This document shows, piece after piece, positions 30,541-60,775 of a DNA stretch of 64,000 bases (its first letter is position 1; the number at the start of each line of letters is the position of its first letter). Both the position numbers and the translations under genes were made by a program. The stretch is from contig JAKZAP010000017.1 in the NCBI GenBank assembly GCA_023053575.1, forward strand, positions 5,649,501 to 5,713,500, in the 5' to 3' direction. The stretch comes from Branchinecta lynchi (lineage: Eukaryota > Arthropoda > Branchiopoda > Anostraca > Branchinectidae). Under the pieces are notes generated by a model, which saw only the letters and a program-made list of their open reading frames with translations, had not been told where the DNA came from and searched no databases.

Positions 30541-30737
30541 TTTGATCACTATCTCTCCTTGGCGATGCAGAATCTCCGGCCTCTCCGGGTATCTGGCTGA
30601 AGAAAGGCAGAAGTGGTGTCACAGCTGCATCCAAAGATCGCGGTGATTGACTGACACAGGATTTGAGTCGTACTGACACGCTTACTACTTCTTCCTGGGG
30701 ATCGCTGGCGTGTTTTGGACTTAGTCCTATAGAGTAT
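30535..30737 (+). repeat. R2 repeat, copy 3
   Basis: CTATCTCTCCTTGGCGATGC to GGACTTAGTCCTATAGAGTATTGC. Duplicated at 34,348-34,550 by the tandem duplication. Confidence 0.75.
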
Positions 30738-31210: not shown

Positions 31211-31216
31211 AACGTA

Positions 31217-32060: not shown

Positions 32061-33772
32061 ATAGGACATATAATTCTTCCGGAATCCCGTTGTAACCGAA
32101 TTTTTTTTTATAAGTTGAAGTTTTATTTGAAGTTGATTAGATGTTCTTTATAGAGATAAGGATTTACGCTGCATTCAATTCTGAATTTTCTTTTTTTGCT
32201 GGACAATTCGGCAATTCGGAATTCGGCCGAAACCGGAAATTTGGCAGAAGCAAAGCAGGAAATTTTGGTCAGTATCGTCAAAATAGAGGTATATCTGAAC
32301 TGGGTTTTCTCTGATGATTAGCCTGGCGAAGACTGGATCTGGCGAAGACAAGACCCGGTTTTCTGGATCAAATTATATATTTTTGGAATCCCGTCGAAAC
32401 CTTTGGTCTTGTTTCGCCAGACAGCTCTGTGGTTTAATAGGTAGTCTTGGGACCACAAAAAGGCACTTCAATCATCAGTGTTTCTATAAAATTTCGCGAA
32501 CGGCGCACTTCGCGTCTTCACTATTTAGAAGAAGAGTAAGTCCTTTAGTTGGCGTTTGAGGCTTGGAATTTTGGAGTGCTTGAAGTAGTCAAATGTTGCC
32601 AGAAAAAAAGGCGATTTAAAAAATATTTTGCCTGCGGCGCTTTAATTTGTACTCGGTACATCATTAGTGACGTTGTCACTTTGCAACAACATTTTTTTTT
32701 GTTGTCAAAAAGGCTAGTGACTATCCCTGAATAAAAACAGAAGTGGGAGAGCGCGAAAACGCGCCAAATTTTCTCTTTAGACTTGATTTGATGCATACTA
32801 TGCAACTTTTTACATTGTAGCTTCTTGAAGGCAATTCTGTGTTTTCAGAAGAAGAAAAAATAAAACTCGGTAAAACTCAGCTACCGATTTGGTCAATTTT
32901 ACAAGATTCAAGAAGTTTCGAGTAATATAACTATCCTGTTTAGTTTGTTACTTCTTAGCAATTGCTAGACATTCCCCCCTCTGTCCATCCTAGACTTTTA
33001 ACTTCAGTGAAATAGCACTTCATGTTTGTTTGTAATAGCTATAATTCATTTAATAATTTCCACCAGTAAGTAGTTTCCTACAGGCATTATCTGAGCAATT
33101 CTGAAACCTCGTGGAAGTGGAACATTCATTATGACGTTTTAGCCTTTGTTTACGGACATGAAAAGGATGAACAAAAATAACTTTTAGTTTGAATAATCGG
33201 AATGTACACGATACTGACAGAATCTGTTGTACTGAAAGTGAAATTTTTTGCAACGACCAAAGTATGGATCTTTCGTTAAAAATTTAGAGTCTCATAAATA
33301 AATACGCATTTGCGAAATCGATCGGTTTTCACACGATTTCACTTTCGTTACCGAAGTCAAGGAAACTAAAATTGTTGTAAAAATGCGGTTAGCGTATTTT
33401 GCGAAGTAGTGTGGTGCAACTGTAAACACGGAAGTTGTAAATCATTCTTGCTGTTGTTGTTGTGTCATCTTTGAATTTAGTTGAGTGGCCGAGTGGGAAA
33501 GCTCAAATTATTATTCTCTAGTCGATGCTAGTTTTGGATCAATCCTAAAGCCTCATTTTTTTTTTTGCATGAGCACCATGCAAAAAATTTGAGATTAAGG
33601 AATGGGGCACCAGTACCCCCATAAGAATCTATTTCAAAAGCAAGTATACATTTTACATGTTAAATTCAACAGATTTAATGGGGTAGGGTGCCCTTCTGCA
33701 CCTGACGTCGGAGCACCATGCTAAGAAATACGTCCTTCATAAAATCCGATGACGAATGACGAATGACGAATC

Positions 33773-33993
33773 CGATGACATAAAATCCCGATTTCGTTGA
33801 GTCGAGGAGCTCTCATGATCTACGCAACAAGGACCACCTACAACTACCCAGGACCAAGACTGTGAGATCAGATTTCAATCCTCGTATTGCATGTAGCAAA
33901 GTATGGAACAGTCTCCCCGATAATGTCCGAAGCATTCAGTCGTTTGGCACCTTGAAGACCCAGCTAAAAACATTTTTGGTTGATAAAGAATAA
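33773..33993 (+). pseudogene. LINE reverse transcriptase C-terminal end (duplicate)
   Basis: Duplicate of the fragment ending at 30,180. Same frame and stop. Confidence 0.8.
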
Positions 33994-34347
33994 ATACATT
34001 CGGGAATATATATTTTTGTTTTGAAATAGGAAAGATCATTAATGAGGGTAGGGCGACATCCCTGGATGCTAGGCTTGAGTTTTTTTCTTCTTTTTTTATA
34101 TTATTTTGTTGGAAATTAGTGATTGTGGGGGATAGACCTGGGTAGACCAGGTGAACTTTGAGGATGGAACGGTAAGTAAAATAAAATTCTTCAATTATTC
34201 TCTTTTATTTTATTGTAATAGTTAAGAGACTCGTTAATTTGTTAATTATTGTGGTATTAACCCCTATGTAACGGTCCATGGAGCTTTGTAGGGGTCGAAA
34301 TTTATTTTGTTCCTTTATTTTGATTTTAATAAAACTGAACTGAACTG

Positions 34348-34550
34348 AATACTTTTGATCACTATCTCTCCTTGGCGATGCAGAATCTCCGGCCTCTCCG
34401 GGTATCTGGCTGAAGAAAGGCAGAAGTGGTGTCACAGCTGCATCCAAAGATCGCGGTGATTGACTGACACAGGATTTGAGTCGTACTGACACGCTTACTA
34501 CTTCTTCCTGGGGATCGCTGGCGTGTTTTGGACTTAGTCCTATAGAGTAT
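34348..34550 (+). repeat. R2 repeat, duplicate of copy 3
   Basis: Carried by the tandem duplication; identical as far as I can see to 30,535-30,737. Confidence 0.75.
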
Positions 34551-35023
34551 TGCCGCCAGACGTGCTAGAGGAGCAATGACAATCACACGTGAGATCTGGG
34601 GATATCTGGCGGGTGAATAAGCGATTAGGCTTTCGCTTCATATCGAGTCAAGCATTAGCCCCGTTGAAAAGTCAGCCAGCACTCACCGCTAGAGTCGGAA
34701 GCCAGAAATGATCAACTTGATGACGCTTGACAGAACAGAGTTGGGTAAAGCAAAAAGAGGGGAAGAGGTATTTTAAACAGTTTTAAACATGGTTAAGCCT
34801 AAGAGGAACTGAAAATAGCAAAACAAACCTGGATTAACGTACACCAAGAAGTAACGTGTCATTGTTATCTTTACGATAGCGCACCTAGCGGCCAAACAAA
34901 ACTAATCTGAGAGGAATCTTATGAGGGGCGTATTGAGTATTGAGGATTTGTGCCTGACTGTCTTGGATCCTCAGAGAATGATTCCGGATTCGTTTTTTCG
35001 CGATTTTCCGGTTCATATCGGAA

Positions 35024-35029
35024 AACGTA
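35024..35029 (+). repeat. Target-site duplication, left (AACGTA)
   Basis: AACGTA directly precedes AGTAGTATAGG and matches AACGTA at 50,466-50,471 directly after CCTATACTACT. Six-base duplications are the rule for Polintons. Confidence 0.93.
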
Positions 35030-35937
35030 AGTAGTATAGGTCATAATTGATACAGGCGGGCATATGGTACATGCCGCTTCAAATGCATGGTCAGATTGAA
35101 GCGGCAGGTACCATATGCCCGGCCTGTATCAATCATGTGATATCAGTGTGAGCTAGAAACCTTAAACTAACGTTATGGGAGAGGGGGGAGTGTGTAGAAG
35201 GAGTGGGCATATGTAGGGAAGGGGTAGAAAGTGCCCCACCCCCATCCCTCCTTCCAGTAGTAGTATAGGTCATAATTGATACAGGCGGGCATATGGTACA
35301 TGCCGCTTCAAATTCATGGTCAGATTGAAGCGGCAGGTACCATATGCCCGGCCTGTATCAATCATGTGATATCAGTGTGAGCTAGAAACCTTAAACTAAC
35401 GTTATGGGAGAGGGGGGAGTGTGTAGAAGGAGTGGGCATATGTAGGGAAGGGGTAGAAAGTGCCCCACCCCCATCCCTCCTTCCAGTAGTAGTATAGGTC
35501 ATAATTGATACAGGCGGGCGTATGGTACATGCCGCTTCAAATTCATGGTCAGATTGAAGCGGCAGGTACCATATGCCCGGCCTGTATCAATCATGTGATA
35601 TCAGTGTGAGCTAGAAACCTTAAACTAACGTTATGGGAGAGGGGGGAGTGTGTAGAAGGAGTGGGCATATGTAGGGAAGGGGTAGAAAGTGCCCCACCCC
35701 CATCCCTCCTTCCACCTTCCCCCCACCGTTGAATCGGCCCATCTGTTTGGGTGGGGAGATTGAAAATGACCAAAAACTAGAGCCATTGAGTCTTGTACTT
35801 GAAGACGCTGCGTGGTGTGGATGTGCATAGTTTGAATGCCGGATATGAACTGACAGAATAATGAGGATGCACATGGTGTTCTTGGACTTTTGCTACCGGA
35901 AATGAGGGGGTTGACAGGAATAAGGGTGTGAACAGGG
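35030..35937 (+). repeat. Polinton left TIR with three 229-bp units
   Basis: Matches the inverse of 49,956-50,465. The terminal 229 bp are present three times (starts 35,030, 35,259, 35,488), each reopening with AGTAGTATAGG. After the third unit the TIR continues singly to AACAGGG at 35,937. Confidence 0.93.
35046..35133. repeat. Subterminal palindrome in TIR
   Basis: ATTGATACAGGC, GGGCATATGGTAC and GCCGCTTCAA pair in order with TTGAAGCGGC, GGTACCATATGCCC and GGCCTGTATCAAT, around a loop of about 13 nt. It begins 16 bp from the terminus and recurs in every 229-bp unit (about 35,275, 35,504, 31,233, 31,462) and at the right end (about 50,362-50,449). Confidence 0.9.
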
Positions 35938-36096
35938 TCACTGTACTTCTACAGTGGGTGGGAACAAAAGAATTGATAAGATCTTGGGGAAACACAGAGG
36001 GGGAAGATTGGGAAAGCATGACTGAAGATCTATAAGAAAGAATTTTGAAAACATTTTATTAATTTGTCAAATAAATAATATCTGAATGTGAAACCA
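35938..36096. other. Sequence between TIR and acidic gene
   Basis: Contains a small hairpin CACTGTACTTCTACAGTG (35,939-35,956) and, on the minus strand, AATAAA (36,055-36,060), the likely poly(A) signal of the acidic gene. Confidence 0.6.
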
Positions 36097-37698: not shown

Positions 37699-40600
37699 AT
37701 GGGGCGTGAGAAGGAAAAAGCTGAAGACCAGAACAGCGATGACGACTTTGATCTTAAACCGAAACACAAGAAGAAAAGGAAAACAAAACGGATGAACTTT
37801 TCAGCTCTCCTCCGTCTCCGCAACCACCAGCCCCTGTCGGACCGTCGAGACCAGTCCAAACCGGACCGTCGAGATCACCCCCCGTTGGACCATCGAGAAC
37901 ACCCCGAGTTGGACCGTCGAGACCACCTACAGCCGAACCTTCGAGACCACCTCAATCTCCCCCACCGTCTCCTGAGCTTACACGACCAAACAGAGGCGTT
38001 CCACAAGTTACGATGCAAGAGGATTCTCCGCAATCTCCCGAACTAATACGCAGCAATCGAGGTGTCCCACAATGGGTCAGAAGGTGGAAGTTACATAAAG
38101 AACAGCGGAAGAGACACCCGAAACAGCAACTGCTTCAAGCTGGTTCACCGCATCAAACCCCAGTTGAACCGTCGAATCCATTCCAAGTTGGTTCATCAAA
38201 CCCACCCCAAGTCGAAACATCGACCTCACACCAAGCCGATTCATCAAATGCAACCCATGCTGAACCATTGAGACCACCTCCAGCTGGACCGTCAAGACCA
38301 GCCGCTGTCGTACCGTCGAGACCGGTCCAAACCGGACCATCGAGAACACCCCCAGTCGGATTGTCGAGACCACCTACAGCCGAACCGTCGAGACCACCAC
38401 CAGTCGAACCGTCGAGACCACCTACAGCCGGACCATCGTATCAACCTCAACCCAGAGCATCGAGACCACGCACTGCCGGACCGTCGCGTCTACCACAAGC
38501 AGGTCCATCGAATCAACCGTCATTTAGGATTCATCAGGAGGCATTCCGGGGTATGCTCAGGATTTACCGGATGTCCCTGAATGAGGTGAATCGATTTTTT
38601 GTCCCCTATTCATTTCCTGGTGCATTATTATTAGGGATTCGTGAGAGCATACGAAATGTTATACGTGAGAGTATAGCTCAGTGGGGGAATATTTTATTTC
38701 GTATAGGGGTCAGGGTCTTATTTTTGAATACGCGAAACGGTGAGGTTGTGACACCAGCTCCATACTTCAACAGCGAATTTGGGTCTGTTTCCCCAGGAAT
38801 GATCAACTGGGAGGAAGTGTTTGAAGGGGATGTTTCGCGACTCAATGCCCTCTACGAAAATTACACGACTGAATCAAGTCAACTTCAATTTCTGGGGGTA
38901 GAATCGGTTGATGTCTCGATAGCGCAAGATCCGAAGGGGGTTCCAATTATAGGGGGGGGAGGGCACAACCGTGAAAAGTATCATCCCGATCTAAATAAAC
39001 GGGGGGTGCAAATGATCAACTTTGACACGGGCACAAAATGTTTCATGTGGGCTGTTATCCAAGCGGGACATAAACCTTTACAGAAAGATGCAAGTCAGAG
39101 TCATCTATCACGTCTGCAGGCAGAGGGTAAGGAATTCCCAACATTGAATTTTAAGACGATAAATTACCCTTCAAAAATTGCAGATATAACCAAGTTTGAA
39201 CGCGAAAATTCCGACAAAAGTATTGGCATCACGGTTTTAAGGTATGAGCCACTGACGAGTCATCCTGAATGAAGCATTTTTTGAAGTTTACCCCAAAAAG
39301 AAAGATGCCAAAGGCTTGCTTTATCCACTCCGTACCCCTTCCATCCTCAAACCCAAACATCACGTTTTCCTCCTCTATGAGCCACCGCCTTGGGATGATG
39401 ATGCACAGGAAGATCAGTATGGGCATTTTTTCCCCATTGTTGACCCAAGTCGGTTGCTGAATGCAGGATGTAAGCAAAAGTCAAAGTTCTACTGTCTTTT
39501 TTGTTTATACGCCTTCCGTATGGAACGGACGTTTGATGAACATGTTTTCCACTGTAGTTCCCATGGGCGACAAGTCATTACATATCCGAACGGGGAAAGG
39601 GTTAACTACCAATTTGAAAATCATCACCATCGGCTCAGACAGCGTGACAAAATTGTCCTCGACTGTGAAGCTGTCTTACAGGACGTTGATGACGATACTG
39701 ACCGACAGAAACGACACGTACCATGTGCAGCGGCGTTTGCGCACATTCAACATGGTATGATCGATACTCCAAAGACTTTGGTTGGTTACCACGAATATTT
39801 TGGGGAAAACTGTATGGATAGTACTGCCACGAAGTTAATTGAAGTTGCAAACGGGATATTGGCAGACTACCGCAATGTAAATTTTCCTATGAAAATAAGT
39901 CCAGCAGACACTGAAAGATTACAATCTGACACCTGTTGGATTTGTAAGGAAAAGTTCTCGAGTATAGATATCGTTGTACGAGACCATTCTCACTTAGACT
40001 CGGGGGAGGCGGGGGGGTCTAACTTCAGGGGGGTCAGCCATCAACGTTGTAACTTGAATCTTCGGGCTAAAATGTTAGTGAATGTGTACGTTCATAACAT
40101 CCAGTATGATAAAAACTTCCTTCTTCGCACATTTGCAAAAATGAAAGGGGTTAAAAATGATTCGTTGTGGGTCAAGGATTCTTTTCATATCACGATTGTC
40201 CCAAAATCAAGCGAGAAAATTGTTTTCTTCGACGTATCGTGGCGGGTAAATATTAACGGGGTTGAGGTTGCCAACAAGTTGCGATTTTTGGATTTCATGG
40301 CTTTCTACCCGAAATCTTTGGAAGAGCTGATAAAAGTGCAGAAAGGTGATGACCCAAACAGCTTTACTTTACTCAGACAACACCAGAGGGTCCAAGATAC
40401 ACCTGAACTGTACGAGCTGATTACTCAAAAGGGTTGTTACCCCTATGAGTATTGTAGCAACTTTGACAAGTTCGAGGACACTGAACTACCTGACATTACT
40501 GACTTTTATGACTCACTGAAGGACAAAGACTGCTCACAGGAGAGGTATGATTTTGCGCAACGGGTCTGGGCTGTTGGAGGGTGTCATACATTACGAGACT

Positions 40601-42230
40601 ACTGTCTCCTCTATCTAATGAGTGACGTTTTATGTTTGGGGGATATTGTCTCCACTTTTGCTGATGAAGTGTATGATGATTCCCAATTGGAAATAGGATA
40701 TTACTTTTCAACACCACACTTAACCTATGACTTGGTTTTCCTTTTTTCTGGTGAAAGCATCGAACTAATTTCCGATCCGGAAATTCATCAGTTTTTTGAA
40801 CGTGGGCTGAGGGGGGGATTAACTTTTCATGGGAGGCGGGTTTTTGAATCCAAGCCAAATGATCCACAGGATCCCACTTGTGCTGTTGTCCTTGACCGGA
40901 ATTCCTTATACCCCGAAGTCATGAAATCATATCCATTGCCGGTGGGAGGGTTTCGATTCCTCTGTGAAGATGAATATCCTGATCTGTCCACTTTTACTCC
41001 CTATAGTGACAAGGGGTATATGTTTGAAATCGATGGGTGTATCCCACCAGAATTTCATGATCTGTGTAAAGATTTCCCCTTCCCACCCGAAAATAAACCG
41101 GTGACGAAAGAAATGTTGAGTCCCTACAATCGTCATCTCATCACCCAAGGTTCCCATTGGACTCCCTCAAAAAAGAAATTGATTGCGGATTTCGTCCCGA
41201 AAAAAAACTTTGTAGTTCATTGCATTTTCCTCAAATGGATGATTGCTCATGGTTTTGAAGTTACCAGAATTCATAAGGTTCTAGTTTTTTACCAAAAGAA
41301 CTTCATGGAAAAATTCGTGGATCACTTTGTACAGAAACGTTCCCAAGCGGTTTCGGAAGTACGCAAATCCATCATGAAACTGTTCATGAATTCGGCGTAT
41401 GGTAAAATGTGCGAGAGCAAACGGAACCGTCAACGTTGCGATGTTGTCAGTTCCGTACAAGAATGTCGACATATCCTAGCTGACCACATTTCCATGATTT
41501 TACAATCTTGGAAAATGATGTTGTGGTCATGACCCGGAAGAGTCGAAACATTTATTTCAATAAGCCAATCGGGGTTGGGGTTTCCATTTTAGAGGTGTCG
41601 AAAAAGATCATGCTTGAATATTTTTATGATGTCGTCAAGACCCAGTGGCCTGCTGACGGTCAAGTTGAGGTCTTTTACTCTGACACTGATTCATTGGGTC
41701 TGCTTATTCACACCTCAGACCTGGCAGGTGATCTGACTTCGGATTTTATGCAAAGGCATACAGACTACACTAATTGGGACAAAGAGAAGTATGGGACATT
41801 GGTGACCATGCGTCCATCAAACCTTCTGGGATTTTGTAAAAGTGAAACGGGGAGTGGGTGGGTTAAAAGGGGGGTCATAGCCGGTCCAAAATCCTATTTC
41901 TTCGAAACAGAAGAAGGACCAAAAATTGGATGCAAAGGGGTTCCTCGTGCGTATGTAAAGAACCACTTTACATACGATATTTTCCACGGCGTTGTTCAAC
42001 AAGGGAAAGGTGTCACAGCCTCACTGAAAGCTATTCGCTCACAAAAGATGATAAATTATAGTATCGAGTTTACCAAGATTGCTCTATCTGCTGTATCAGA
42101 CTAGTGTTATGTGATGGAAAATGGGGTAGATGTTGTACCATATGGACACTACAGTGTTTCCGATACCCCTGAGTGTGTTGAGTACAGAGAGAGTTTAAAG
42201 ATATTAGAAGAGTTAGCGCGTAATTGCTAG
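37699..42230 (+). pseudogene. POLB: Protein-primed DNA polymerase B, three frameshifts and a stop
   Basis: Polinton replication polymerase, spread over frames 37,699-about 37,790, about 37,795-39,272, about 39,265-41,532 and about 41,485-42,230. Domains in order: Lys-rich start; Pro/Ser/Arg-rich repeats (GPSRPP-type, about 37,830-38,520); conserved N-terminal region with NFDTGTKCFMWAV; C2H2-like finger (CLFC..HVFHC, about 39,490-39,555); exonuclease DCE (39,661); HNH-like Cys/His cluster (CWIC, RDHSH, HQRCN, 39,934-40,053); Exo II HNIQYD (about 40,093); motif A DRNSLYP (about 40,894); motif B KLFMNSAYG (about 41,377); motif C YSDTDS (about 41,679). Frame breaks lie in the A-rich tract near 37,765-37,800, near 39,240-39,270 and near 41,484-41,498. 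TAG at 42,102 interrupts the tail, which stays open to 42,228-42,230 and holds the usual GHY motif. Confidence 0.95.
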
Positions 42231-42392
42231 TGGTATTTTGTAGACGTCCTCGCCCCATTCTATAAACATGTTTGTTGGTCGTTGTTTTTGTTTTTTGTTG
42301 TTGTTTTTTTCTGGTGTAAATAAAAAATGTCTATATCCCGTGATTCTCTGACATATAAAGCTTAGTCTACCTTTAGTGGCCAGAGAGTAAAC
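42231..42392 (+). promoter_or_regulatory. PolB 3' end and ATPase-block promoter
   Basis: AAATAAAAAATG (about 42,318) is a likely poly(A) signal for PolB. CATATAAAGC with TATAAA at about 42,354-42,359 lies 35-40 nt before the ATPase ATG and may start the structural gene block. An initiator is not obvious. Confidence 0.5.
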
Positions 42393-43058
42393 ATGACTTT
42401 CAGTTTCCAAACCCCTTTCCGTGCAATTCTTTGCGGTCCTTCTTCGAGTGGAAAAACAACCCTACTAACTCGTATCATTGAACAACGAGAAAAAATGTTT
42501 TCTGAAGTCCCTGATCATGTAGTCGTCTGCTATGCATCCTGGCAACCTCTTTATGACAGAATTAAAGAGTTGATCCCAGACACACAATTTGTACAAGGAT
42601 TGGACGTGTTCGAAATGTTAAGGAGTTCTACGCTATTGATCTTAGATGATTTAGCGGAGTCATTTGACAATTACAGTGAACAACTGCTTAATTTGTTTAC
42701 TATTCGCAGTCATCATGAAAACATTTCTGTATTTAGTATTACTCATAATCTGTACTACCCAAGTAAAAGTTTTCGAACACTTGCCTTGAATTGTACTTAT
42801 TATATCATTTATCGAGTTGTGCGTGATTCCAGTTCACTGATTACGTTAAACCGTCAAGTGTTTCCGGGGCTGCCTGGATTCTTACTTGCTGCCTATAAAA
42901 TGGCTACATCTCAGCCATACGGCTACATTGTTTTGGACCTGAATCAAAATACACCAGAAGAATTACGGGTCTTGTCAGATCTCTTAGATAAAGAGGGATG
43001 TACAGTATATATACCTAATACTTCAAGTCTGAACCACCAGTCACGAAAATGTCGTTGA
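42393..43058 (+). CDS. ATP: FtsK/HerA-like genome-packaging ATPase
   Basis: 221 residues, close to the usual Polinton ATPase length. Walker A is GPSSSGKTT (residues 15-23) and Walker B is LLILDDL (81-87) with the catalytic acid pair D85/D86. The sensor-like segment VFSITHNLYY comes about 35 residues later. Family knowledge: it pumps the element's DNA into capsids and belongs to the A32-like FtsK/HerA packaging ATPases of PRD1-adenovirus-lineage viruses. The frame is intact. It overlaps the next gene by 10 nt (ATG at 43,049) and heads a tightly packed set of late-type genes. Confidence 0.95.
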   Translation: MTFSFQTPFRAILCGPSSSGKTTLLTRIIEQREKMFSEVPDHVVVCYASWQPLYDRIKELIPDTQFVQGLDVFEMLRSSTLLILDDLAESFDNYSEQLLNLFTIRSHHENISVFSITHNLYYPSKSFRTLALNCTYYIIYRVVRDSSSLITLNRQVFPGLPGFLLAAYKMATSQPYGYIVLDLNQNTPEELRVLSDLLDKEGCTVYIPNTSSLNHQSRKCR

Positions 43059-43372
43059 AGAAGTTACATGAGCATCACCCTCTTTTCATATTATTGGCGA
43101 AAGCAAAGCCAAAACTTCGAAAAGCAATCTTAAAAAATCTCGATAATGATTTTGTCAAAGCCTTATCGGAATTGTGTTTAAATCTAGCAGGTGGTAATGT
43201 TGAGGTATCAGATGCTGTCAGGAAGCAAGCGAGTAAGCATCGTTCGGTTATTCGAGCTCTAGCAAAACGATCTGGCATAAAAATAAAACGGAAACGCTTA
43301 GTGCAAATCGGTGGAAGCTTTTTCAGTATTCTTTTACCGATCATATCCAGTTTAGTTGGAGCTGCTCTATAA
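43049..43372 (+). CDS. Basic protein with hydrophobic C-terminus, core-like
   Basis: 107 residues. The first about 90 are rich in Lys/Arg with a predicted helical segment (KAILKNLDNDFVKALSELC). KIKRKRLVQIGG then leads to a hydrophobic end (SILLPIISSLVGAAL). This layout, short and basic with a KR(K)xLVQxGG and hydrophobic tail, recurs in metazoan Polintons and adintoviruses, where it has been likened to adenovirus core peptides. The function as DNA condenser or membrane-active virion peptide is inference. The start overlaps the ATPase gene by 10 nt, and the stop is one base before the next ATG. Confidence 0.8.
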   Translation: MSLKKLHEHHPLFILLAKAKPKLRKAILKNLDNDFVKALSELCLNLAGGNVEVSDAVRKQASKHRSVIRALAKRSGIKIKRKRLVQIGGSFFSILLPIISSLVGAAL

Positions 43373-43373
43373 A

Positions 43374-44102
43374 ATGGCTAAAGCTTATAAACTCACACCA
43401 ATAGAAGTTGCTCTATCCCCTTCACGTTGATTTGAAGATGCTCTAGGCAGTTTCCTTAGTGATTCAGCTGTTGAAGATGATATTAAGCTATCACTGCTAC
43501 AATCTGGAGTTCAACGTATTTATAAGATTAAACCTCAACTTCAAAAACCGGTCAAAGTGGATATTGTGAAAGATAGTACGCCATCAAAGGCCCCACCTCC
43601 GCATCCGTCTTCTCCAGTGACAGACACAAACACAGACATTGTCCTAGCGTTGCCTCTTTCTTACCAGGAGAAAGCGAGACGTCTCGTGCAATATTTTATT
43701 ACTACTCAAAATGTGAGCTATTCTCCTGGTGACCCAGAGATTGAAATTATGGGGTCCAGATATTCCATCGTTGACTTATTACACGATTTAATATCAAATA
43801 AACGACGTTTACACTGTGTAGACGATCACGTGTATGAATTTCTTATTGGTTCAAAAGTACCACATAGTCTTATTAACAATAAGTCGGTACTCCAAACTTT
43901 GAAGCAATTTGAAGAAGAAAAAAATGGATGGAAATCTCTGAGTACACATTTTCAAAGTGTATTTAGTCCTAGTACGGGAGTCTCTACCCCTCACTCTGCA
44001 AGCACCCCTCGCCCACGAACAACACGATCAGTGGCTTCTCGGCTGATGAGTCAACAGTCTGGTAAGGGTATATCTCTGAAAGGGAAATGGATGACTCATT
44101 AG
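43374..44102 (+). pseudogene. PW-like Polinton protein with premature TGA
   Basis: The ATG at 43,374, one base after the previous stop, opens a frame that continues to 44,102 except for TGA at 43,428-43,430 (codon 19). The TGA follows CGT and could be a decayed CGA arginine codon. After the stop, an ATG at 43,557 allows 181 residues. Those include a Pro-rich linker and a conserved domain (KARRLVQYFI, IEIMGSRYSIVDLLHDLI, VPHSLINNKSVL) common in metazoan Polintons between ATPase and integrase. Its biochemical role is unknown. The C-terminus overlaps the integrase start by 16 nt. Confidence 0.8.
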
Positions 44103-45136
44103 GAAATATCTATCGGAACATTGGTGAGGTTGGAAGTATTTCTGCTCCAGGTGTTTTAGCTCGTGCCGCGAACGTTCCATTACAATCAGCTCTGAAGCAT
44201 TTGGAAAGTGAAGAAAGTTATACGTTACACCGAAATAGGCGCCTCAGGGCTGATCATTATCGTCGCACCAAAGCCCTTTACCCTGGTGAGTTTGCTCAGT
44301 CGGATTTGCTTATACTCGATAAACACCTGATAAAGCACAATCATCCGTATCGCTATCTATTGGTTATCATTGATGTATTCAGTCGATACGTAAATGTTCG
44401 CCCTCTGAAAACGAAAACAGGCAAGGAAGTGGCTCTTGCAATAGACTCTGTCTTGAAAGAGAGGCCCTATAGGCTATTACAGACGGATAGGGGGTCCGAG
44501 TATGTAAATCCAGCTGTTAAGAAGGTTCTAGAGAAATACAACACTAAACTGTTCCATTCTCATTCTCCTATTAAAGCTGCTTTGGCTGAAAGAATGAATC
44601 GAACGCTGCGACTGATGATTACTCGTTACTGTACATTACAAAACACATTCTCATTTATTCCGGCCATCCCGGCAATTGTCAGTCAGTATAATCATTCACC
44701 TCACAGATCGTTACGGTTCAAGAGACCGGTGGATATTACTAGTGAAAATGCAAGTAGCATATTTACTGAAATTTACCCAATCCTTCCAGTACCGAAACCA
44801 CCCAAGTTTCAAGTGGGTGATACAGTACGCATCAACCGATTACAGGGTTATTTTGAGAAGGGTAATCACCTATGGAGTACAGAACTTTTTAAGATAGCTG
44901 AAATCAAATTCACCAATCCGTTGACCTATAAACTTCGCGATTATAAAGATGAAACAATAGAAGGTGGATTCTACGACCACGAACTACAGAAAGTCAATGA
45001 CCTGGGCAGTTACAAAATTGAAAAGATACTTAAGACCCGGTATGTACGTGGTCAGAAACAGTTGCTTGTGCGTTGGCTTGGATACACCCCAGCTCACGAT
45101 TCTTGGGTACCTGCATCAACAATTCATCATGTCTGA
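44087..45136 (+). CDS. INT: Retroviral-type integrase with chromodomain
   Basis: 349 residues. An N-terminal helical region (LGNIYRNIGEVGS) is followed by the rve catalytic core with D73 (AQSDLLIL), D134 (QTDRGSEY) and E168 (AERMNRT), the D,D,E triad by position. An SH3-like DNA-binding stretch (FQVGDTVRINR, about 240-250) leads to a chromodomain (YKIEKILKTRYV, LLVRWLGY, DSWVPAS, about 306-345) that may tether insertion to chromatin. The classical HHCC zinc finger is not evident. It inserts Polinton DNA with 6-bp target duplications, matching AACGTA here. The frame is intact, and it overlaps the minor capsid start by 8 nt. Confidence 0.97.
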   Translation: MDDSLGNIYRNIGEVGSISAPGVLARAANVPLQSALKHLESEESYTLHRNRRLRADHYRRTKALYPGEFAQSDLLILDKHLIKHNHPYRYLLVIIDVFSRYVNVRPLKTKTGKEVALAIDSVLKERPYRLLQTDRGSEYVNPAVKKVLEKYNTKLFHSHSPIKAALAERMNRTLRLMITRYCTLQNTFSFIPAIPAIVSQYNHSPHRSLRFKRPVDITSENASSIFTEIYPILPVPKPPKFQVGDTVRINRLQGYFEKGNHLWSTELFKIAEIKFTNPLTYKLRDYKDETIEGGFYDHELQKVNDLGSYKIEKILKTRYVRGQKQLLVRWLGYTPAHDSWVPASTIHHV

Positions 45137-45929
45137 TGATTTTCTGGTGACTTTTATCAGCAACGTGTCTGATCCGTTAACAAATGCTCTAAATAAGACC
45201 ACTGATTTTTGGACACGATTAACACCACCAATTCAACTTAAGATCGACTACGAGGTTGCACTTGTGGATTGCATCATCAAAAATAGTTTTGATGTAATAA
45301 AGAAATATAAATCCTATGATGTTCAACTGAAACCATTCAGTTGGCCTGAAAATCTGATTGTTGACAAGGAAAGGTATCCTCGATACACACTACCATATCG
45401 GCAATACAGAACAATTGAAGACTTGTGTAGTGATTTGAATGCTCATCTGAGTGGAAAAAACAAAAAGGCACCTACCTTGTCTTTTCTCCCTTCACATAAA
45501 CGGGTACTGATAACAGGTCTACAAGAAAACGATCGTCTCTGGTTCAGTGAAGACATGAAAGATCTATTGGGGTTTCGTGACAATAACATTATGGTTCGAA
45601 CACCGATTGAACATGTGCATGGAGTCTATGGTGACTTTGAACCAGGCTTTTTTTCAGCCTATTCCTGTATATTCATTTATGCTTCGTTTATTGAAAATTC
45701 AAGGGTGGGTAATACCTGTGCTCCTTTGCTGAGAATTTTGGATAAGAAATCTACGAATGAAACCACGTATCATTACAATATTAGGCAGTTGCAATATGTT
45801 CCTGTGGCCAGTAATGAATTAGAGCTCTGCCAGATCACATTGAAAACAGAGTTTGGTGATCCCCTTCCTATTTCCAAAGGTCTCTGTGTGTTCACATGTC
45901 ATTTCCGTCCAAAGAATGCCCAATCATAG
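45129..45929 (+). CDS. mCP: Minor capsid (penton-like) protein
   Basis: 266 residues from the ATG at 45,129, chosen because upstream in-frame sequence lies within the integrase and the MSDDFLVTFISN start matches the family pattern (short strand, SN, then LxxPIxL). Features include TPPIQLKIDYEVALVD near residue 30-45 and a long beta-rich region ending CHFRPKNAQS. By order and pattern it is the single jelly-roll penton analogue that pairs with the double jelly-roll MCP. Intact. Its end overlaps the next gene. Confidence 0.85.
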   Translation: MSDDFLVTFISNVSDPLTNALNKTTDFWTRLTPPIQLKIDYEVALVDCIIKNSFDVIKKYKSYDVQLKPFSWPENLIVDKERYPRYTLPYRQYRTIEDLCSDLNAHLSGKNKKAPTLSFLPSHKRVLITGLQENDRLWFSEDMKDLLGFRDNNIMVRTPIEHVHGVYGDFEPGFFSAYSCIFIYASFIENSRVGNTCAPLLRILDKKSTNETTYHYNIRQLQYVPVASNELELCQITLKTEFGDPLPISKGLCVFTCHFRPKNAQS

Positions 45930-46363
45930 AACCCTTTTTCGTTGTCCTGACATTGATTGTTACTATGATGCGTTACGTCCACGTCAAACTGGTTCAGGGC
46001 TTGAGTACTATAAAGGTCGTACTTCGATGTCTGGATATGGTCTGGGCAGTTGGTTTGCTAAGCTTTCGGTCAGCTATTCCATTGGCTAAAAAGTACATAT
46101 TACCACATGCGACAAATGTGGCAGCAACGACGCTCCAGGATTGGGGCTCTGGTAAAGAATTTAAAGAGAGTCTATCAGATAATCTTAAGGAGACAGCCCG
46201 GAATGTGAGTGATCAGTTGCGAGGACAGACTGGAAAGGGGTTGAAAAGACCTCGTTCAGCTCCAGAATTGATCAGTTTGTATCCGGCAGTGAAAGCGAGT
46301 GGCCACAAGAAAACTAAACGAAGGAAGAAGATTGTAAGAGCACGAGCTGATTTTTTCTCTTAA
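45916..46363 (+). pseudogene. pVI-like Polinton virion protein, frameshifted
   Basis: The N-terminal half is in one frame (from about 45,916; RQTGSGLEYYKGR and GYGLGSWFAKL), the C-terminal half in another (from about 46,065; SAIPLAKKYILPHATN, GSGKEFKESLSDNL, KTKRRKKIVRARADFF). The break is at about 46,055-46,068, where a single-base loss would explain it. A Gly-rich start, amphipathic middle and basic tail, placed between mCP and MCP, mark the family sometimes compared with adenovirus pVI. Membrane lysis or capsid-cement roles are inference. The alternative continuous frame (45,896-46,363, 155 residues) has an implausible N-terminus. Confidence 0.75.
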
Positions 46364-46368
46364 AAAGG

Positions 46369-47625
46369 ATGGCTTACTTACCCCATAAAGATGCTCATCC
46401 GTCTATGTCATCCTGTTTGAACCTGTTTAATCCTGAAAACGTCGATGTTTCTGTCAAACATGGATATTTTGAACAGTACTATCCGCAGCATCCCATTACG
46501 GATCCGAATCCTTTGGAATTCAAAATCTTTTCCAACGAGGACTATTTCTTGGATTTGGCATCTAGCTTCCTGGAAGTCACTCTTCGTGTACGACATACAG
46601 ATGGCACTGCTTTGGCAGCAGCAGATCAAGTGGGTTATGAAAACTGTGTTTTCCACAACTTGTTCCAGCATATTACAGTTCACATTAATGGGACACTGGT
46701 GAGTTCCAGCAACAATTTAGCACATTATGCTAGTTACATCACATTTATGCTGATGACGCCTGGAGATTTTAAACAAACGAGGGGTCCAGCCATGGGATAC
46801 TTTTACAATGAAGATAACACCATTACGGATGGGTTAACAGCAGGCGTTCATACGGACTTTCATCTTGTTGGTAAAATTAACCATGAACTGTTCAACATTA
46901 GTTCATGGTTCCCACCTAATACGCGTATTGAACTCAAAATGAAGATGGCACCATCCGCATTTCTCATTCGAAAGCTAGCTCCAGGTGCTCCAGATGTCAA
47001 AGTAGTCATCACTGAGGCTATCTTCAACATCAGGAAACAAAAAGTCATGAGTAGTGTGGCTCTTGCTGTTGAAAAACTACGGCTTCAAGGGAATAATATG
47101 AAATTGTTGGTACCAAGAACAGTAGGGACACAACGTCATATTCCTGCTGGCTCATTGAACTTTACAGATTCAACATTTATCTCTGGTGAGATCCCCTCAA
47201 AACTAGCCGTTGCGTTCGTACGAAGCACCAGCTCAGTTGGTGACTTTGGATCTTCCCCACATGCGTTTCAATTGTTTGGACTAAACAGTCTGAACTTGAA
47301 AGTCAACGGAGTCCCCCTTACCCAGCTATCATTTGGAAGATCTTATAATACATTGTACCAAATGACGATGTATGCTTTGGATAGAGATAATCAACTCTAT
47401 GAAAATGGTATAACACCAGCCATGTTTGCTGAAAACCATGGTATGATTGTATTCGACTTGTCTGGTTCTCAAGACTTAACCATTATAAAGACAGGAACAG
47501 TTCGTCTCGAATGCACTTTTAATGCAGCACTCACAGAGAGTATAACGCTCATCTCACTAGCTCAGTTTGAGACCTATTGGGAAATAACACCGGATGGTTC
47601 AGTCCTTCTGGATCTTGCACCATGA
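46369..47625 (+). CDS. MCP: Major capsid protein (double jelly-roll)
   Basis: 418 residues, normal for Polinton MCP. Recognisable blocks: HPITDPNPLEFKI near residue 40, YFLDLASSFLEVTLRV near 58-73, NCVFHNLFQHITVHINGTL near 90-108, and the SSSNNLAHYASYI segment that follows. Family knowledge: double jelly-roll MCPs form hexon-like capsomers. The gene starts five bases after the pVI-like stop and overlaps the protease by ATGA (47,622-47,625). The frame is intact. Confidence 0.95.
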   Translation: MAYLPHKDAHPSMSSCLNLFNPENVDVSVKHGYFEQYYPQHPITDPNPLEFKIFSNEDYFLDLASSFLEVTLRVRHTDGTALAAADQVGYENCVFHNLFQHITVHINGTLVSSSNNLAHYASYITFMLMTPGDFKQTRGPAMGYFYNEDNTITDGLTAGVHTDFHLVGKINHELFNISSWFPPNTRIELKMKMAPSAFLIRKLAPGAPDVKVVITEAIFNIRKQKVMSSVALAVEKLRLQGNNMKLLVPRTVGTQRHIPAGSLNFTDSTFISGEIPSKLAVAFVRSTSSVGDFGSSPHAFQLFGLNSLNLKVNGVPLTQLSFGRSYNTLYQMTMYALDRDNQLYENGITPAMFAENHGMIVFDLSGSQDLTIIKTGTVRLECTFNAALTESITLISLAQFETYWEITPDGSVLLDLAP

Positions 47626-48137
47626 ATACCGATCAAATTCTAAGGGTACTGGAAATGGACCCTGTAACATCTCAGTTCGAAAAGTACTGTATTCCAGCGG
47701 ATTATCTGTCGAGTGTAATAGCTCCAAGAGCCATCTGTATTGTCAACTCGAGCCCTAGCGAAGAATCAGATGGCCATTGGCTGGCACTATTCTTAACGCC
47801 ATCTACAACGGAAATATTTGATGCCCTGGCGTTTCCTTATACCACCTATCAGCCATATATTGTGGATTTCATTCACCGGCGTCGTAAGAAGATCATACAA
47901 CACACTCGTCAAGTTCAGGATTACAGTACAAAAAGTTGCGGATTTCATGCTTTGTTATTTCTTATTTTTCGATGTCGTGGTTATTCGTATTCATACTTTC
48001 TTAGTATTTATAGTGATGTACCCATTTACAATGATTTCCTTGTCGAAAATGTATTGTGTGATTTATATAATGTAGATTTTAGTACCCTTCGTATCATGTG
48101 CCATAAAAGTAAACTGTGTAGTCTTGTGTATAAATAA
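47622..48137 (+). CDS. PRO: Adenain-like cysteine protease
   Basis: 171 residues from the ATG within the MCP stop (ATGA overlap), a start supported by MNTDQILRVLE. Catalytic residues are H52 (GHWLAL), D67 (EIFDAL), a Gln in RQVQD (97-99) and C106 (KSCGFHAL), the order found in adenoviral maturation proteases (C5 family). It would cleave capsid precursors during virion maturation. The stop codon TAA is embedded in the AATAAA poly(A) signal at 48,133-48,138, so the structural block ends very compactly. Confidence 0.95.
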   Translation: MNTDQILRVLEMDPVTSQFEKYCIPADYLSSVIAPRAICIVNSSPSEESDGHWLALFLTPSTTEIFDALAFPYTTYQPYIVDFIHRRRKKIIQHTRQVQDYSTKSCGFHALLFLIFRCRGYSYSYFLSIYSDVPIYNDFLVENVLCDLYNVDFSTLRIMCHKSKLCSLVYK

Positions 48138-48269: not shown

Positions 48270-49327
48270 TCATATTGACATCCTTTCCATATTGGATTCG
48301 ATTTCCTGTGACGGTTTGTTGGGGTTGCACCGCCGGCAGTAGAATTCATTTTCCAGCGGATCCGTGTTACGGGTGTAGGTGGTATTGGAGAACGTGTTCC
48401 ACATGCATATATTGAACGTCTCGAGCTGGCTCCAGTTCATTCGTTGAACCATCTGGTTTGACGACATCTCTGCTGGCGTAATCTGGCAAATAAAATCACC
48501 AGGGTTATAAATATACCCTGGTAAAAATGGCTGGTGGCAACTGTGACGGAGGAACCAAATCTTGAATCTCTCCTTGACTTCCTCCTCCTCCTCAGGGGCA
48601 TCTGGAAGGACGTCGGTGGAGATTTGACGAAGACGGGGCCCATCCATCATCATGTAATGGACAGTGAACCCCGTCGTCTCGTAAAATATCCTCAGATCTT
48701 CGGAGTCTTCTCCAATATGACATTTGGATATATTTTCTGGATTACCGTGTCGCCATTGACAGCAGAGATCCATGTGGCAGTCCCCACATAGAAATCCTGA
48801 TGCATGATCGGAACAGGCCAGTTCCATGCAGCCTTTGCAGTTATACACTATCCCCGATGGACCTCCATGTCGACCACAAGGCTCGCAGAATCCACATACA
48901 TTCATATCGATATCTCCTCCTGGCTCGAAACATCGGTCACACAGCTGAGTCCCCAAAACGTAGTTACAATACGGGCAGTTTGTAAGGATCTGAAAAAAAA
49001 ATGTATTAACTAAAAAATACATATACAAACGTCAATCGTCTATAATGGGCGGACAGACAAAAGGTGAAGATATACAAAATGGAAGAATCTGAATGATAAA
49101 AGTAGCGCATACTAGTCAGTTATACTACAATACTCTCAGAGAATGTTATGTCAAAAAACAATCGATTGTTATTTTACAAAATCATCTAGTCTTAAATTTA
49201 CTCTACAATCCAAAATATTGATTTAAAAAAAAAAAAAAGTAAAAACAGAGAAGAACAAACACTATTTCAAAAGGATATGAAAAGAAGAAACAAGTTAAAA
49301 GTTACTTACAAGTGATTCTGCCATCAT
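48270..49327 (-). CDS. Spliced Cys-rich zinc-binding accessory protein
   Basis: Two predicted exons. Exon 1 is 49,310-49,327 (six codons, starting MMAESL) and exon 2 is 48,270-48,989, giving 245 residues. The intron 48,990-49,309 has donor CTT|GTAAGT and acceptor TTTTTTTTTCAG|ATC in phase 0. Exon 2 alone is open further upstream (to 49,028), but those residues are translated intron. The protein has many CxxC pairs (NCPYC, LCDRC, CGFCEPCG, CKGC, CGDC, and CRRC near the end), an acidic stretch (EEEEEVKE) and conserved Trp/His. It looks like a multi-zinc RING/B-box-like or viral accessory factor; no family recognised. It lies opposite the structural block near the right end. Confidence 0.75.
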
Positions 49328-49373
49328 GGTATACTTGTTATCACTATGATGTACACTGTTCGACTGCATACCG

Positions 49374-49400
49374 AACTGAAGCGTCCTTCCACTTTTTATG
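49374..49400 (-). promoter_or_regulatory. Putative promoter of Cys-rich gene
   Basis: Minus strand CATAAAAAG (49,392-49,400) and TCAGTT (49,374-49,379) upstream of exon 1. Spacing is shorter (about 21 nt) than at the left-end promoters, so confidence is lower. Confidence 0.4.
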
Positions 49401-49795
49401 GGGGAAAACCGGTTTTGTATAACTAGTTTATGCTAGTTCACCCTCCCTTATCAGGGTAGGTCAAGTATAATCAGGTCATACCCTTCCTGTATTTAAATCA
49501 GTTCCAAGAAAAAATGCAATACCCTAGAGGAGAGAAGGGGAAAGGCTGAATACATTATCATAATCAGGTCAAACCCTCCCCCACTCCTGACCTGATGGTC
49601 ACTTCCAATAGTGAAAGTAGAACAACCCCCCCCCCCAAAGGAATAAGGTGGAAAAGGGTAATCACATTCAGATAACCAGTTCATCACCTTTACTGGCCTC
49701 ATTATCATTCCAGAGAGTGAAAGTGCATCAACTCTGCGCATAATATGGATTCGTTATGCACTATACTATACTCACTTAATAAGTTCAAAATAAAT
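49401..49795. other. Intergenic region before the tRNA-like unit
   Basis: Contains a C10 run at 49,627-49,636 and repeated AATCAGGTCA words (about 49,469 and 49,561). No gene; the frame at 49,493-49,741 lacks any support. Confidence 0.45.
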
Positions 49796-49868
49796 GACCT
49801 CGGTGGTATGATGGTTACAACGCTAAACTCTGAACTAGCGGTCCCAGGTTCGATTCCTGGCGAGGTCC
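49796..49868 (+). tRNA. tRNA-like sequence, Gln(CTG)-like, irregular anticodon arm
   Basis: Acceptor arm GACCTCG/CGAGGTC pairs over 7 bp. The T arm CCAGG-TTCGATT-CCTGG is perfect. A box TGGTATGATGG (49,804-49,814) and B box GGTTCGATTCC (49,847-49,857) fit Pol III promoters. The anticodon arm is odd: CGCTA/TAGCG pairs perfectly but encloses 10 nt (AACTCTGAAC) instead of 7. CTCTGAA inside matches the tRNA-Gln(CTG) loop. So it looks tRNA-derived, with doubtful decoding ability. Confidence 0.75.
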
Positions 49869-49929
49869 TATGAGCGTGCCTTAGGCGCCCCTTTCATAAG
49901 ACTCAAGGGGCTAAGGTACGCTCATTTTT
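49796..49929 (+). ncRNA. tRNA-like + 21-bp hairpin + T5: predicted Pol III transcript
   Basis: Directly behind the tRNA-like 3' end, 49,870-49,893 pairs with 49,905-49,925. That gives 15 bp (one G-T), a 3-nt GCG bulge, then 6 more bp, closed by an 11-nt loop (49,894-49,904). TTTTT follows at 49,925-49,929. A tRNA promoter driving a pre-miRNA-sized hairpin and ending at a T run is the design of tRNA-linked viral microRNA genes such as the murine gammaherpesvirus 68 TMERs. It lies inside the Polinton between the Cys-rich gene and the right TIR. Function is inferred, structure is seen. Confidence 0.7.
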
Positions 49930-49955
49930 GTAAAAATAGCGAAGAAGTATTTCAC

Positions 49956-50465
49956 CCCTGTTCACACCCTTATTCCTGTCAACCCCCTCATTTCCGGTAG
50001 CGAAAGTCCAATAACACCATGTGCATCCTCATTATTCTGTCAGTTCATATCCGGCATTCAAACTATGCACATCAACACCACGCAAGCCCCGTCTTCAAGT
50101 ACAAGACTCAATGGCTCAACTGGTAGAGCAGTCAACATGTGATCCAAAGGTCCCCGGATCGATACCCACCAATGCCAATAGTTTTTGGTCATTTTCAATC
50201 TCCCCACTCAAACAGATGGGCAATTCAACGGTGGGGGGAAGGTGGAAGGGGGGTTGGGGCACCCTCTACCCCTTCCCTACATATGCCCACTCTTTCTACA
50301 CACCCCCCCCCCTCTCCCATAATGTTAGTTTAAGGTTTCTAGCTCACACTGATATCACATAATTGATGCAGGCCGGGCATATGGTACCTGCCGCTTCAAT
50401 CTGACCATGAATTTGAAGCGGCATGTACCATATGCCCGCCTGTATCAATTATGACCTATACTACT
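49956..50465 (-). repeat. Polinton right TIR
   Basis: Inverse of 35,488-35,937, ending CCTATACTACT at 50,465. It has one 229-bp unit, not three, and carries a 61-bp segment (50,118-50,178) absent from the left TIR copies. Confidence 0.93.
50105..50186 (+). ncRNA. Decayed tRNA-Thr-like sequence in right TIR
   Basis: A box TGGCTCAACTGG (50,112-50,123) is canonical. B box GGATCGATACC (50,156-50,166) has one change from consensus. An anticodon-loop remnant CATGTGA suggests TGT (Thr). Acceptor ends do not pair, so it is not a working tRNA. TTTTT follows at 50,182-50,186. The left TIR keeps only the first bases (GGCTC) and then the T run. Confidence 0.55.
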
Positions 50466-50471
50466 AACGTA
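50466..50471 (+). repeat. Target-site duplication, right (AACGTA)
   Basis: Matches 35,024-35,029 exactly. Confidence 0.93.
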
Positions 50472-58920: not shown

Positions 58921-60475
58921 AAAAATAATCTGCGTTTCAGTTAAACTTTAAGGAGCTTGGGAGTTGGGACCTATAGGCTACCTAGTAACAACAAATTCGC
59001 AGTCCAATGTTTTTCTCTGTTAGGCTGAACCTTTTCCTCCACAACCACGATCATGTTCAGTTTCGTAACAATAGTTAGCATAATAGTCAGTTCGTAACTG
59101 TGACCAGGAATGTTTGCAGTTATTCAAAATCTGCCAAGCTTAATTGGAAACTTTTCCGCAAATAGTTGCTCAGTTTCACTTAATTCGTAAGGAAGCTTGT
59201 CGCTTCAACTGACTTAGCTAATGGTTAATTAAATGGTGCGTGAAATTAAGAGTTCTCCTTGTCAACATACATTACTATTACTCACTTAGATCCTTGAAAG
59301 TTTAATTTATCTGTTGCTTCCCAAAGTAGTTAATCCTCGTCAAAGCCGGTGTGATATTTGTTTTCTCTCTTCAGATCTTCTCGAGCAACCCATTGACGTC
59401 ATCTTCATACTGTCTTTGTTGTCTGCTTGTTTTCTTGAATACACAGGGTAACTGAATAACAAAAATTAATAAAAAAAATAATAGAACTGGCAACGACAGA
59501 AACTAAACTACATCAATTCCACTGTTTATAATATTCGTTTAGTCAAGGTAGCACTCTGGCCTTTCCCGTTCTATAGGTATGAGCCATGCTACTCCATATT
59601 TGATGAAAAGGCTGATTTAAAAGCGAGGGTTCACCTTCCAGATTTTTCTTCCGGATTCCAGACAGCCGTTTTCGTTGAGACGGATCTGGAAGGTGAAGCA
59701 AGGCCAAAAACGTCTGGGGTGTTGGACACCCCAGATTCCGGATGTCTGGAAGGTACCATAGAGGCAATTCATTAGAGTGACAGATCAAATATGAAAATGT
59801 AGGAAGGAAAGGGAAAATGATCGACAGTTGTGACTGGGATGCAAGAGATATTTTAAAATGCGAAGGGGACATCTAGGATAAGATTAATCCGAAGTAGAGA
59901 TAATCTAAGCTCAGTAGAGACATGACTAATCTCAATATCAAATACTGCAAGTTTTTTTTTTTTATAGTTAAGCCAGAGTCCACCCACCTTCAAATGGGTA
60001 TCTGGAAAAATCTGGGGAAGCTGAAGCATTGTTCAAATAGGTGGAATAATCTAAATAGGGCTGTACACGATGTTTACATCTTGACACACACACTTGTTTA
60101 AATACAAAGGGATAAGGTTCTTATCAACGCAGCGTTCGGTGTTGCACACGCTGATACAATCTTTCGACCTTCCAAAGATCAGAAAAAGTGTTCTTAGGAC
60201 TACTTGGAGTACGCGAGTACAATTTGACGCCCATTATATAGTAAAAGCTAGTTTCCAAGAAAAGTTGTTTCTTTACCTTCCAACAAATTGAAACTTTAGT
60301 GCTTCCCATGGCAACGCTGACATCGCTGCTCCTTTTCTCGGCCCGCTGGCGGAACCAACCAAGCGATCGGATACTCCCTAGTGTTATTTTGCTCTGGTAG
60401 GGTGCAACACGCTCTCTGTCGACTCCCTACGCGCCGCTGATGGCTCAGGAGGACTTAAGGTCTAAGTCTAAGGTA
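58921..60475. other. No recognised gene
   Basis: A local cluster at 59,630-59,760 repeats TTCACCTTCCAGA/TCTGGAAGGTGAA in both orientations and could form hairpins. Otherwise nothing. Confidence 0.4.
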
Positions 60476-60479
60476 ACGC

Positions 60480-60692
60480 AGACCTGGCTACGGCGAACAT
60501 TGCCCGAACCATTGTCTCCCCCTTCCACATCCACTTGGACGTCACTGATGCTGAAGAAGGTAGACTTGGACTGGGAGGCGATGCACTCCCAATAAGGGTC
60601 TTTCCAGGAGGTCCAAAGATAAGCAGGCCTTTGGGTGGTCCACGGAGGCCAGTACAGATGTCAGGACGAAGCATGGGCCAGACAACGATTTC
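60480..60692 (-). pseudogene. FIGNL1/fidgetin-like AAA-ATPase exon, broken
   Basis: On the minus strand, after an intact-looking acceptor (CTGATTTCAG), the sequence encodes [30 protein letters not shown] and later [19 protein letters not shown]. This is the start of the fidgetin/FIGNL1 AAA module around Walker A. Compared with the family GPPGTGKT motif, two codons are missing after GPPG. The following segment (about 60,555-60,600) has shifted frame, then returns. It ends near 60,484. The surviving acceptor suggests a duplicated genomic exon and not a processed mRNA copy. Host gene relic, not functional. Confidence 0.85.
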
Positions 60693-60775
60693 CTGAAATC
60701 AGATGAAGTTTTCAACTGCATCGAAAAGCCAAGGTCCTACAAAACGGGAAAAAGATGTTTCGATCAAGTATTTAA

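Follow-up and report, generated by a model that had tools for sequence, protein, structure and literature searches.

The block of 134 nt at positions 49796-49929 (+) of the window (the whole 64,000-nt stretch of Branchinecta lynchi DNA analysed here) joins a tRNA-like module, a hairpin and a TTTTT run in uninterrupted order. Its presence in a Polinton raises the question of whether such an element carries a non-coding RNA gene and, if so, of what might become of the transcript. Folding delimits the tRNA-like module to 49796-49868 (+) and resolves it into a 7-bp acceptor stem (49796-49802/49861-49867), a D-stem (49805-49808/49816-49819) with 3 bp in the window copy, a 5-bp anticodon stem (49821-49825/49836-49840) closing a 10-nt loop, and a 5-bp T-stem (49844-49848/49856-49860) in a T-arm with a standard loop. 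The discriminator base is C49868. As the first-pass annotation had recorded, the A box is close to consensus (49804-49814, with one mismatch to TRGYNNANNGG) and the B box, GGTTCGATTCC at 49847-49857, was exact in a motif scan. The 10-nt loop contains CTCTGAA, which we take to have the look of a glutamine CUG anticodon loop. The hairpin, a proposed pre-miRNA delimited by its fold and by comparison of copies, spans 49870-49925 (+), with arms at 49870-49893 and 49905-49925. Its 21 bp (15 + 6), single G-U, 3-nt bulge (GCG) and 11-nt loop, and the T5 at 49925-49929, are all present as previously described. The T-run has the form of a Pol III terminator, and at least TTTT is found at this place in 22/22 copies. 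The earlier description of the two halves as abutting without spacer was nearly, though not exactly, correct: two bases, the discriminator C49868 and T49869, lie between the tRNA-like module and the hairpin stem.

The window copy of the unit folds at -56.8 kcal/mol, against a mean of -38.8 kcal/mol (sd 3.5) for shuffled sequences (z -5.1; 0/200 as good). It bears a private C-to-A change at tRNA position 24 (49819), which breaks a D-stem pair. This position is C in the 21 other copies, 19 of which have the complete 4-bp D-stem (one pair is broken in each of L051 and L052), and the common, C24 form of the unit folds at -62.1 kcal/mol. Strong hairpins on their own are common in the window, and in a ranking of collapsed places that of the unit comes 11th. 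However, 3 of 63,930 57-nt segments covering both strands of the window contain one hairpin with 19 bp or more and a folding energy no weaker than -30 kcal/mol that is followed by T4. A scan for a T-arm plus acceptor stem with 5 + 7 pairs returned the unit as the sole place within the window. Chance formation of the hairpin was rejected on the strength of the shuffle folding and of the rarity of strong hairpins followed by T4.

ARAGORN reported no tRNA in the window, nor in three further copies of the unit (L002, L047 and L052), and an Rfam search at the gathering score gave no match in the window to any miRNA or other ncRNA family. With relaxed settings the unit scored 22.7 bits as a tRNA (cut-off 29) and 27.1 bits as mascRNA/menRNA (cut-off 42.5). 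These results, and a loop of 10 nt rather than 7 nt that is unchanged in 22/22 copies, led us to reject a decoding tRNA, in agreement with the argument originally made from the loop. Since ARAGORN and Rfam at its cut-offs both miss the unit, similar units may lie hidden in published Polintons and adintoviruses. mascRNA and menRNA are parts of long Pol II transcripts whose tRNA-like shape is recognised for 3' processing; the unit resembles them in this shape and in its weak Rfam match but differs in that they have no hairpin gene.

Assignment of the surrounding element to the Polintons, also proposed in the first-pass annotation, was borne out by its core genes, its terminal inverted repeats (TIRs) and a 6-bp target-site duplication. 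Profile matches place the core genes at 39316-47625 (+). They comprise a type B DNA polymerase (39316 on, DNA_pol_B_2, E 1e-24), an A32-like ATPase (42393-43058, Pox_A32, E 4e-5), an integrase with a chromodomain (44087-45136, rve, E 1e-9; chromodomain, E 2e-8) and a capsid-like protein (46369-47625) whose match to Capsid_N is weak and below cut-off (E 0.007). An adenovirus-type endoprotease-like gene follows at 47622-48137 (+), its match to Peptidase_C5 also weak and below cut-off (E 0.0036). In the window copy the DNA polymerase gene appears split over two frames (39316-41532 and 41508-42104). A repeat search identified the right TIR at 49943-50465 (+) and the left TIR, made of 229-bp tandem units, at 35030-35950 (+); the sequence AACGTA borders them on the outside at 50466-50471 and 35024-35029. 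A tandem duplication of 3,813 bp (28251-36000) covers the left end and its flank, so that the element has two left ends, the second starting at 31217. The unit stops 14 nt short of the matched right repeat. Four metagenome relatives of the capsid protein (P0001-P0004) show 56-64% identity. A structure search with the capsid profile yielded no solved structure of note, and no relative was confirmed when a viral contig collection was scanned with capsid and integrase queries. In a DNA search of a phage collection, nine records matched by short pieces, all labelled tRNA.

The assembly (575.7 Mb, 216 contigs) was then searched for the unit. It holds 22 full-length copies, that of the window included, with 90-100% identity, and one relative of the tRNA part only, L053. 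The unit is identical in 12 copies; the alignment used 11 of the 22, the remaining 11 being identical to L002 in the unit. Every one of the 22 lies at the right end of a Polinton, with homology continuing into the element on both sides, so the fixed position by the right TIR that had been claimed for the unit holds throughout. At least 18 of the 22 have a similarly oriented match to the capsid gene upstream (17 at 1,998-2,331 nt and one, partial, at 647 nt), in a search that scored 100 of 982 candidates. The tRNA half searched alone found the 22 places plus L053, and the hairpin half found the 22 places only. L053 (C3:5815635-5815702, -) belongs to a diverged Polinton remnant whose upstream flank matches the element. 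Its tRNA-like part is fully paired in the acceptor and T-arm and shortened in the anticodon region, and the hairpin is missing. The unit is thus a fixed part of one Polinton family; it also has the features of a Pol III gene, namely internal A and B boxes and a T-run.

To measure variation, copies were divided by the state of the capsid frame, a split chosen after a first look at the variation. One set had an intact capsid gene (n = 11: L001, L002, L004, L005, L007, L008 and L040-L044). The other (n = 11) had a broken or partial one (L003, L006, L045-L048 and L052) or none found (L039, L049, L050 and L051), although genes called unfound may exist, since only 100 of the 982 candidates were scored. 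Columns counted as sites only if no more than three copies lacked a letter. Among intact-capsid copies 2 of 134 sites vary in the unit. The adjoining flank has 46/657 (Fisher p 0.0065, a rough value, as are all those given here, because the copies share ancestry), and the other listed parts together have 174/1881 (p 0.0003). The two sites in the unit are the C24A change of the window copy and a bulge change in L044, the latter being the sole variable site of the hairpin, which in this set is as constant as the tRNA part. For comparison, 93/725 sites vary in the gene at 48296-49022, 28/264 in the outer TIR and 5/142 in the inner TIR. Of 2,041 sliding 134-nt windows, 12 were as low or lower, and all of them start at 49787-49798, on the unit. 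In the other 11 copies the unit varies at 26/134 sites, against 117/531 in the flank (p 0.30). Since the unit is held in the intact-capsid copies and decays like its flanks in the others, it appears to have been kept while the element was alive and to have drifted afterwards, which is the mark of purifying selection.

The contrast depends on how the copies are grouped. Over all copies, parsimony gives the unit 0.261 changes per site against 0.303, a small difference; when L050-L052 are left out (the "young" set), 11/134 sites vary in the unit and 150/921 outside it (p 0.012). In the first look, made with this set, the unit took 87th place when 2,042 windows were ordered by rate, and a lower value was obtained for the 134 nt that begin at 49703. 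The stretch at 49703-49795 (+), which comparison of the copies marks as low in variation, has 2/93 variable sites in the intact-capsid set. It includes TATACTATA at 49762-49770 and may be an upstream Pol III element. Because these 93 nt are nearly as constant as the unit itself, the constraint is not confined to the RNA. This TATA stretch at 49762-49770 is missing from L004, whose capsid gene is intact, and from L049. Another low-variation stretch in the young copies was seen at 49368-49501 (0.0053 per site).

Changes within the paired regions were examined copy by copy. The compensatory changes among copies that had been anticipated did not materialise in the hairpin: a single acceptor pair (L050) shows one, and this covariation is not significant, 73 of 500 shuffles reaching one compensatory pair. 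Changes that preserve pairing as wobbles occur in the upper hairpin (L046, L047 and L051) and, as a G-U, in the acceptor stem (L051). Stem-breaking substitutions, considered beforehand to be evidence against a gene, do exist in the hairpin (L047, L049 and L052), but only together with broken or unfound capsid genes, and the window copy aside, all pair-breaking changes fall in L047-L052, which are copies of this kind. An internal TTTT was gained in L046. The 3p arm has 0-1 mismatch in 22/22 copies and the 5p arm 0-3; by parsimony, the 5p arm underwent 11 substitutions and the 3p arm 3 (p 0.049), a hint that the better-kept 3p arm may be the guide.

Places that either arm might recognise were sought in the genome and in the element. 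With up to three mismatches, neither arm matched any place outside the 22 copies in the 576-Mb genome, a result that speaks against slicing of a host gene in the manner of an siRNA. Inside the element no target stands out, the best sites, unit aside, reaching -27.5 kcal/mol or weaker; a shuffle control run for the 5p arm on the + strand only (n = 40) gave a mean of -24.9 kcal/mol (sd 2.0) and a best value of -30.3. A complementarity of 19/26 to the integrase gene was discarded as a target, as it falls within the shuffle range.

Other Polinton families of the genome bear on the origin of the unit. In the sister family (nearest by capsid, 96%; L054, L055 and L022), two tandem tRNA-Gln-like units follow the protease gene. 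They have exact A and B boxes and T-runs, no hairpin and poor pairing in the acceptor and T-stems, and they are not clearly better conserved than the spacers. Tandem tRNA-Gln-like units recur in three more diverged copies (L059, L060 and L061); the second unit is degenerate and without the A box region in L060, and has no near T-run in L061. No such unit was found in the other families (66%, 63%, 52-54% and 42-43% capsid identity), represented by one or two copies each and covered for 2.5-7 kb downstream of the capsid gene, and none of the families inspected besides that of the window (L054-L066) showed the hairpin. An apparent second tRNA-plus-hairpin in family C (L057:1587-1641, on the strand opposite to the capsid gene) was rejected, being absent from L056. 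The region around it (L057:1570-1910) shows a B-box tRNA-like stretch and a small hairpin beside a long palindrome, only the palindrome being common to L056. In the simplest history, one Polinton clade would have carried a tRNA-like Pol III gene at its right end, and a single family would have gained the hairpin; alternatively, the sister family may have lost the hairpin.

The arrangement recalls the TMERs of murine gammaherpesvirus 68 (MHV68), in which tRNase Z and Dicer process a tRNA-like element joined to two pre-miRNA hairpins (PMC4838037, PMC3771402). The virus has eight such units of 200-250 nt, with two hairpins each, in the first 5.5 kb of its genome (PMC4838037). The parallel with MHV68 drawn in the first-pass annotation stands for the general plan, a Pol III-type unit in a DNA virus with tRNA-like module, pre-miRNA-sized hairpin and terminator (PMC4838037). 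It fails for the number of hairpins and units: the Polinton has one hairpin in a single unit of 134 nt, which lies at the right end, and each right end examined carries one hairpin-bearing unit, with no multi-unit cluster. No sign of common descent of the Polinton unit and the TMERs was seen.

Taken together, these comparisons suggest that the unit is probably a functional Polinton ncRNA gene, TMER-like though independently evolved, with a Pol III transcript whose hairpin would be cut by tRNase Z and Dicer. Pol III would transcribe about 130 nt from the unit. Host tRNase Z would recognise the acceptor stem and T-arm and cleave 3' of the discriminator base; the released hairpin, nearly 60 nt long, would owe its 3' U tail to termination. 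Dicer would then yield RNAs of about 22 nt, perhaps with the better-conserved 3p arm as guide, and a host Argonaute loaded with such guides could reduce transcripts of the host or of the element by way of seed matches. tRNase Z requires the acceptor stem and the T-arm, and a leader that depends on this enzyme would have to keep both, as the unit does beside its non-decoding anticodon loop. The unit would have arisen separately from the TMERs, plausibly from a tRNA-Gln-like Pol III gene like those at the right end of the sister family. We consider it an evenly balanced proposition that animal Polintons evolved the tRNase Z route independently, a right-end tRNA-Gln-like Pol III gene having acquired a hairpin in one family and now yielding a selected viral microRNA.

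The main rival, which we hold to be unlikely, is a VA-RNA- or EBER-like Pol III RNA whose hairpin serves as a decoy for Dicer, dsRNA sensors or export factors. Adenovirus VA RNAs, Pol III RNAs of about 160 nt (PMC4838037), are described as acting in this manner (PMC3771402, PMC6599070). Pol III signals, a strong hairpin and selection would fit a decoy equally well, and the failure to find a specific target in the genome at up to three mismatches, or in the element, speaks for it. The unit also shares with VA RNA its Pol III type, the presence of a hairpin and the internal boxes (A and B), and Polintons are linked to the adenovirus group. However, the boxes of VA RNA lie within a single long stem that has a central domain; in the unit they sit in a separate cloverleaf, followed by a separate hairpin, an organisation that departs from the VA type. 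The intact acceptor stem and T-arm make this cloverleaf an expected substrate of tRNase Z, whereas a decoy needs no cleavable tRNA. Besides, a 21-bp stem is short for a dsRNA decoy, and a pure shape decoy does not predict the apparently greater constraint on the 3p arm. A different product was also considered: the tRNA-like part or its fragments, the hairpin being a 3' stabiliser or maturation signal. The tandem tRNA-Gln-like units of the sister lineage lack a hairpin and L053 has the tRNA part alone, as this explanation would have it, but where the capsid gene is intact the hairpin varies as little as the tRNA part, and the T-stem and acceptor of the sister units are poorly paired; we judge it improbable.

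Two further explanations were weighed. The unit might be a tDNA, bound by Pol III or TFIIIC and acting on chromatin or replication at the element end, with the RNA incidental. Its location 14 nt inside the TIR and the low variation of the upstream stretch at 49703-49795 agree with this, but conservation extends over the hairpin and the terminator, neither of which TFIIIC binding needs, and the tDNA appears very improbable to us. The unit might also descend from a dispersed tRNA-derived SINE, or from a host tRNA pseudogene, that landed in the element by chance. This would account for the tRNA origin and for the AAAATA found on both flanks of the unit, where the sequence is A/T-rich. Within the limits of the search on very common words, it was rejected for this genome, because all 22 copies occupy one position, the hairpin half occurs nowhere else in the 576 Mb and the tRNA half recurs once, in L053, with the same flank. 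The scattering of tRNA-hairpins as an ordinary SINE, against which the first-pass annotation had cautioned, is thus not what the genome holds, and the probability left to this origin is negligible.

The favoured reading, a Pol III-transcribed precursor feeding Dicer, has another viral counterpart. The pre-miRNAs of bovine leukemia virus come from Pol III transcription and reach Dicer without Drosha (PMC3771402), their hairpin being transcribed directly (PMC3911700). The proposed passage of a Pol III hairpin to Dicer would be common to the two systems. To our knowledge, the bovine leukemia virus Pol III pre-miRNAs have no tRNA leader, unlike the unit with its tRNA-like one. Elements nearer to Polintons have been surveyed for RNA genes: a collection of PLVs and virophages contains 558 tRNAs and 10 miRNA matches, with decoding tRNAs and codon compensation discussed (PMC12220804). 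The Polinton unit and these elements have tRNA sequences in common; a fusion of tRNA and hairpin is absent from the available part of that account (PMC12220804). Since the unit is below the Rfam tRNA cut-off and missed by ARAGORN, tRNA scans of this type would not list it. Among the titles and abstract openings of the matches listed in literature searches, none concerns a Polinton or adintovirus gene for a tRNA-hairpin or a microRNA, which leaves absence from print unproven, and a term search of PMC11071296 returned no mention of tRNA, miRNA or hairpin. As far as these searches show, the gene, if real, would be without precedent outside gammaherpesviruses, and no Polinton non-coding RNA gene before it would have had evidence of selection. 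It would add a Pol III gene that is non-coding and under selection to a group of integrating viruses usually characterised through their proteins, and would suggest more than one origin for the rare tRNA-plus-hairpin route to viral microRNAs. Should guides be produced, the element could use them to control genes of its own, rival elements or the host.

Some other features were noted in passing. The right TIR contains a second tRNA-like stretch, at 50104-50190 (+), with exact A and B boxes and T5; it folds poorly as a cloverleaf, and the left TIR copies keep its first bases only. A long, near-perfect hairpin at 50358-50454 in the same TIR recurs in the 229-bp tandem units of the left end, with copies at 31244, 31473, 35057, 35286 and 35515, and 61-nt windows across it fold at about -36 to -40 kcal/mol. 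In two other families the capsid genes often form divergent, inverted-dimer-like pairs with spacings of about 10 kb or 6 kb; examples are C11:6642563 (-) with C11:6652770 (+) and C2:11997258 (-) with C2:12003077 (+). A COX1 search returned 15 fragments, most of which contain in-frame TGA, a codon read as tryptophan in animal mitochondria, and they are probably nuclear copies. Elsewhere in the window, positions 15168-15267 are a run of 100 N marking an assembly gap, and a reading frame at 60468-60698 (-), within animal host sequence, has a translation that presumably resembles an AAA ATPase of the fidgetin-like kind.
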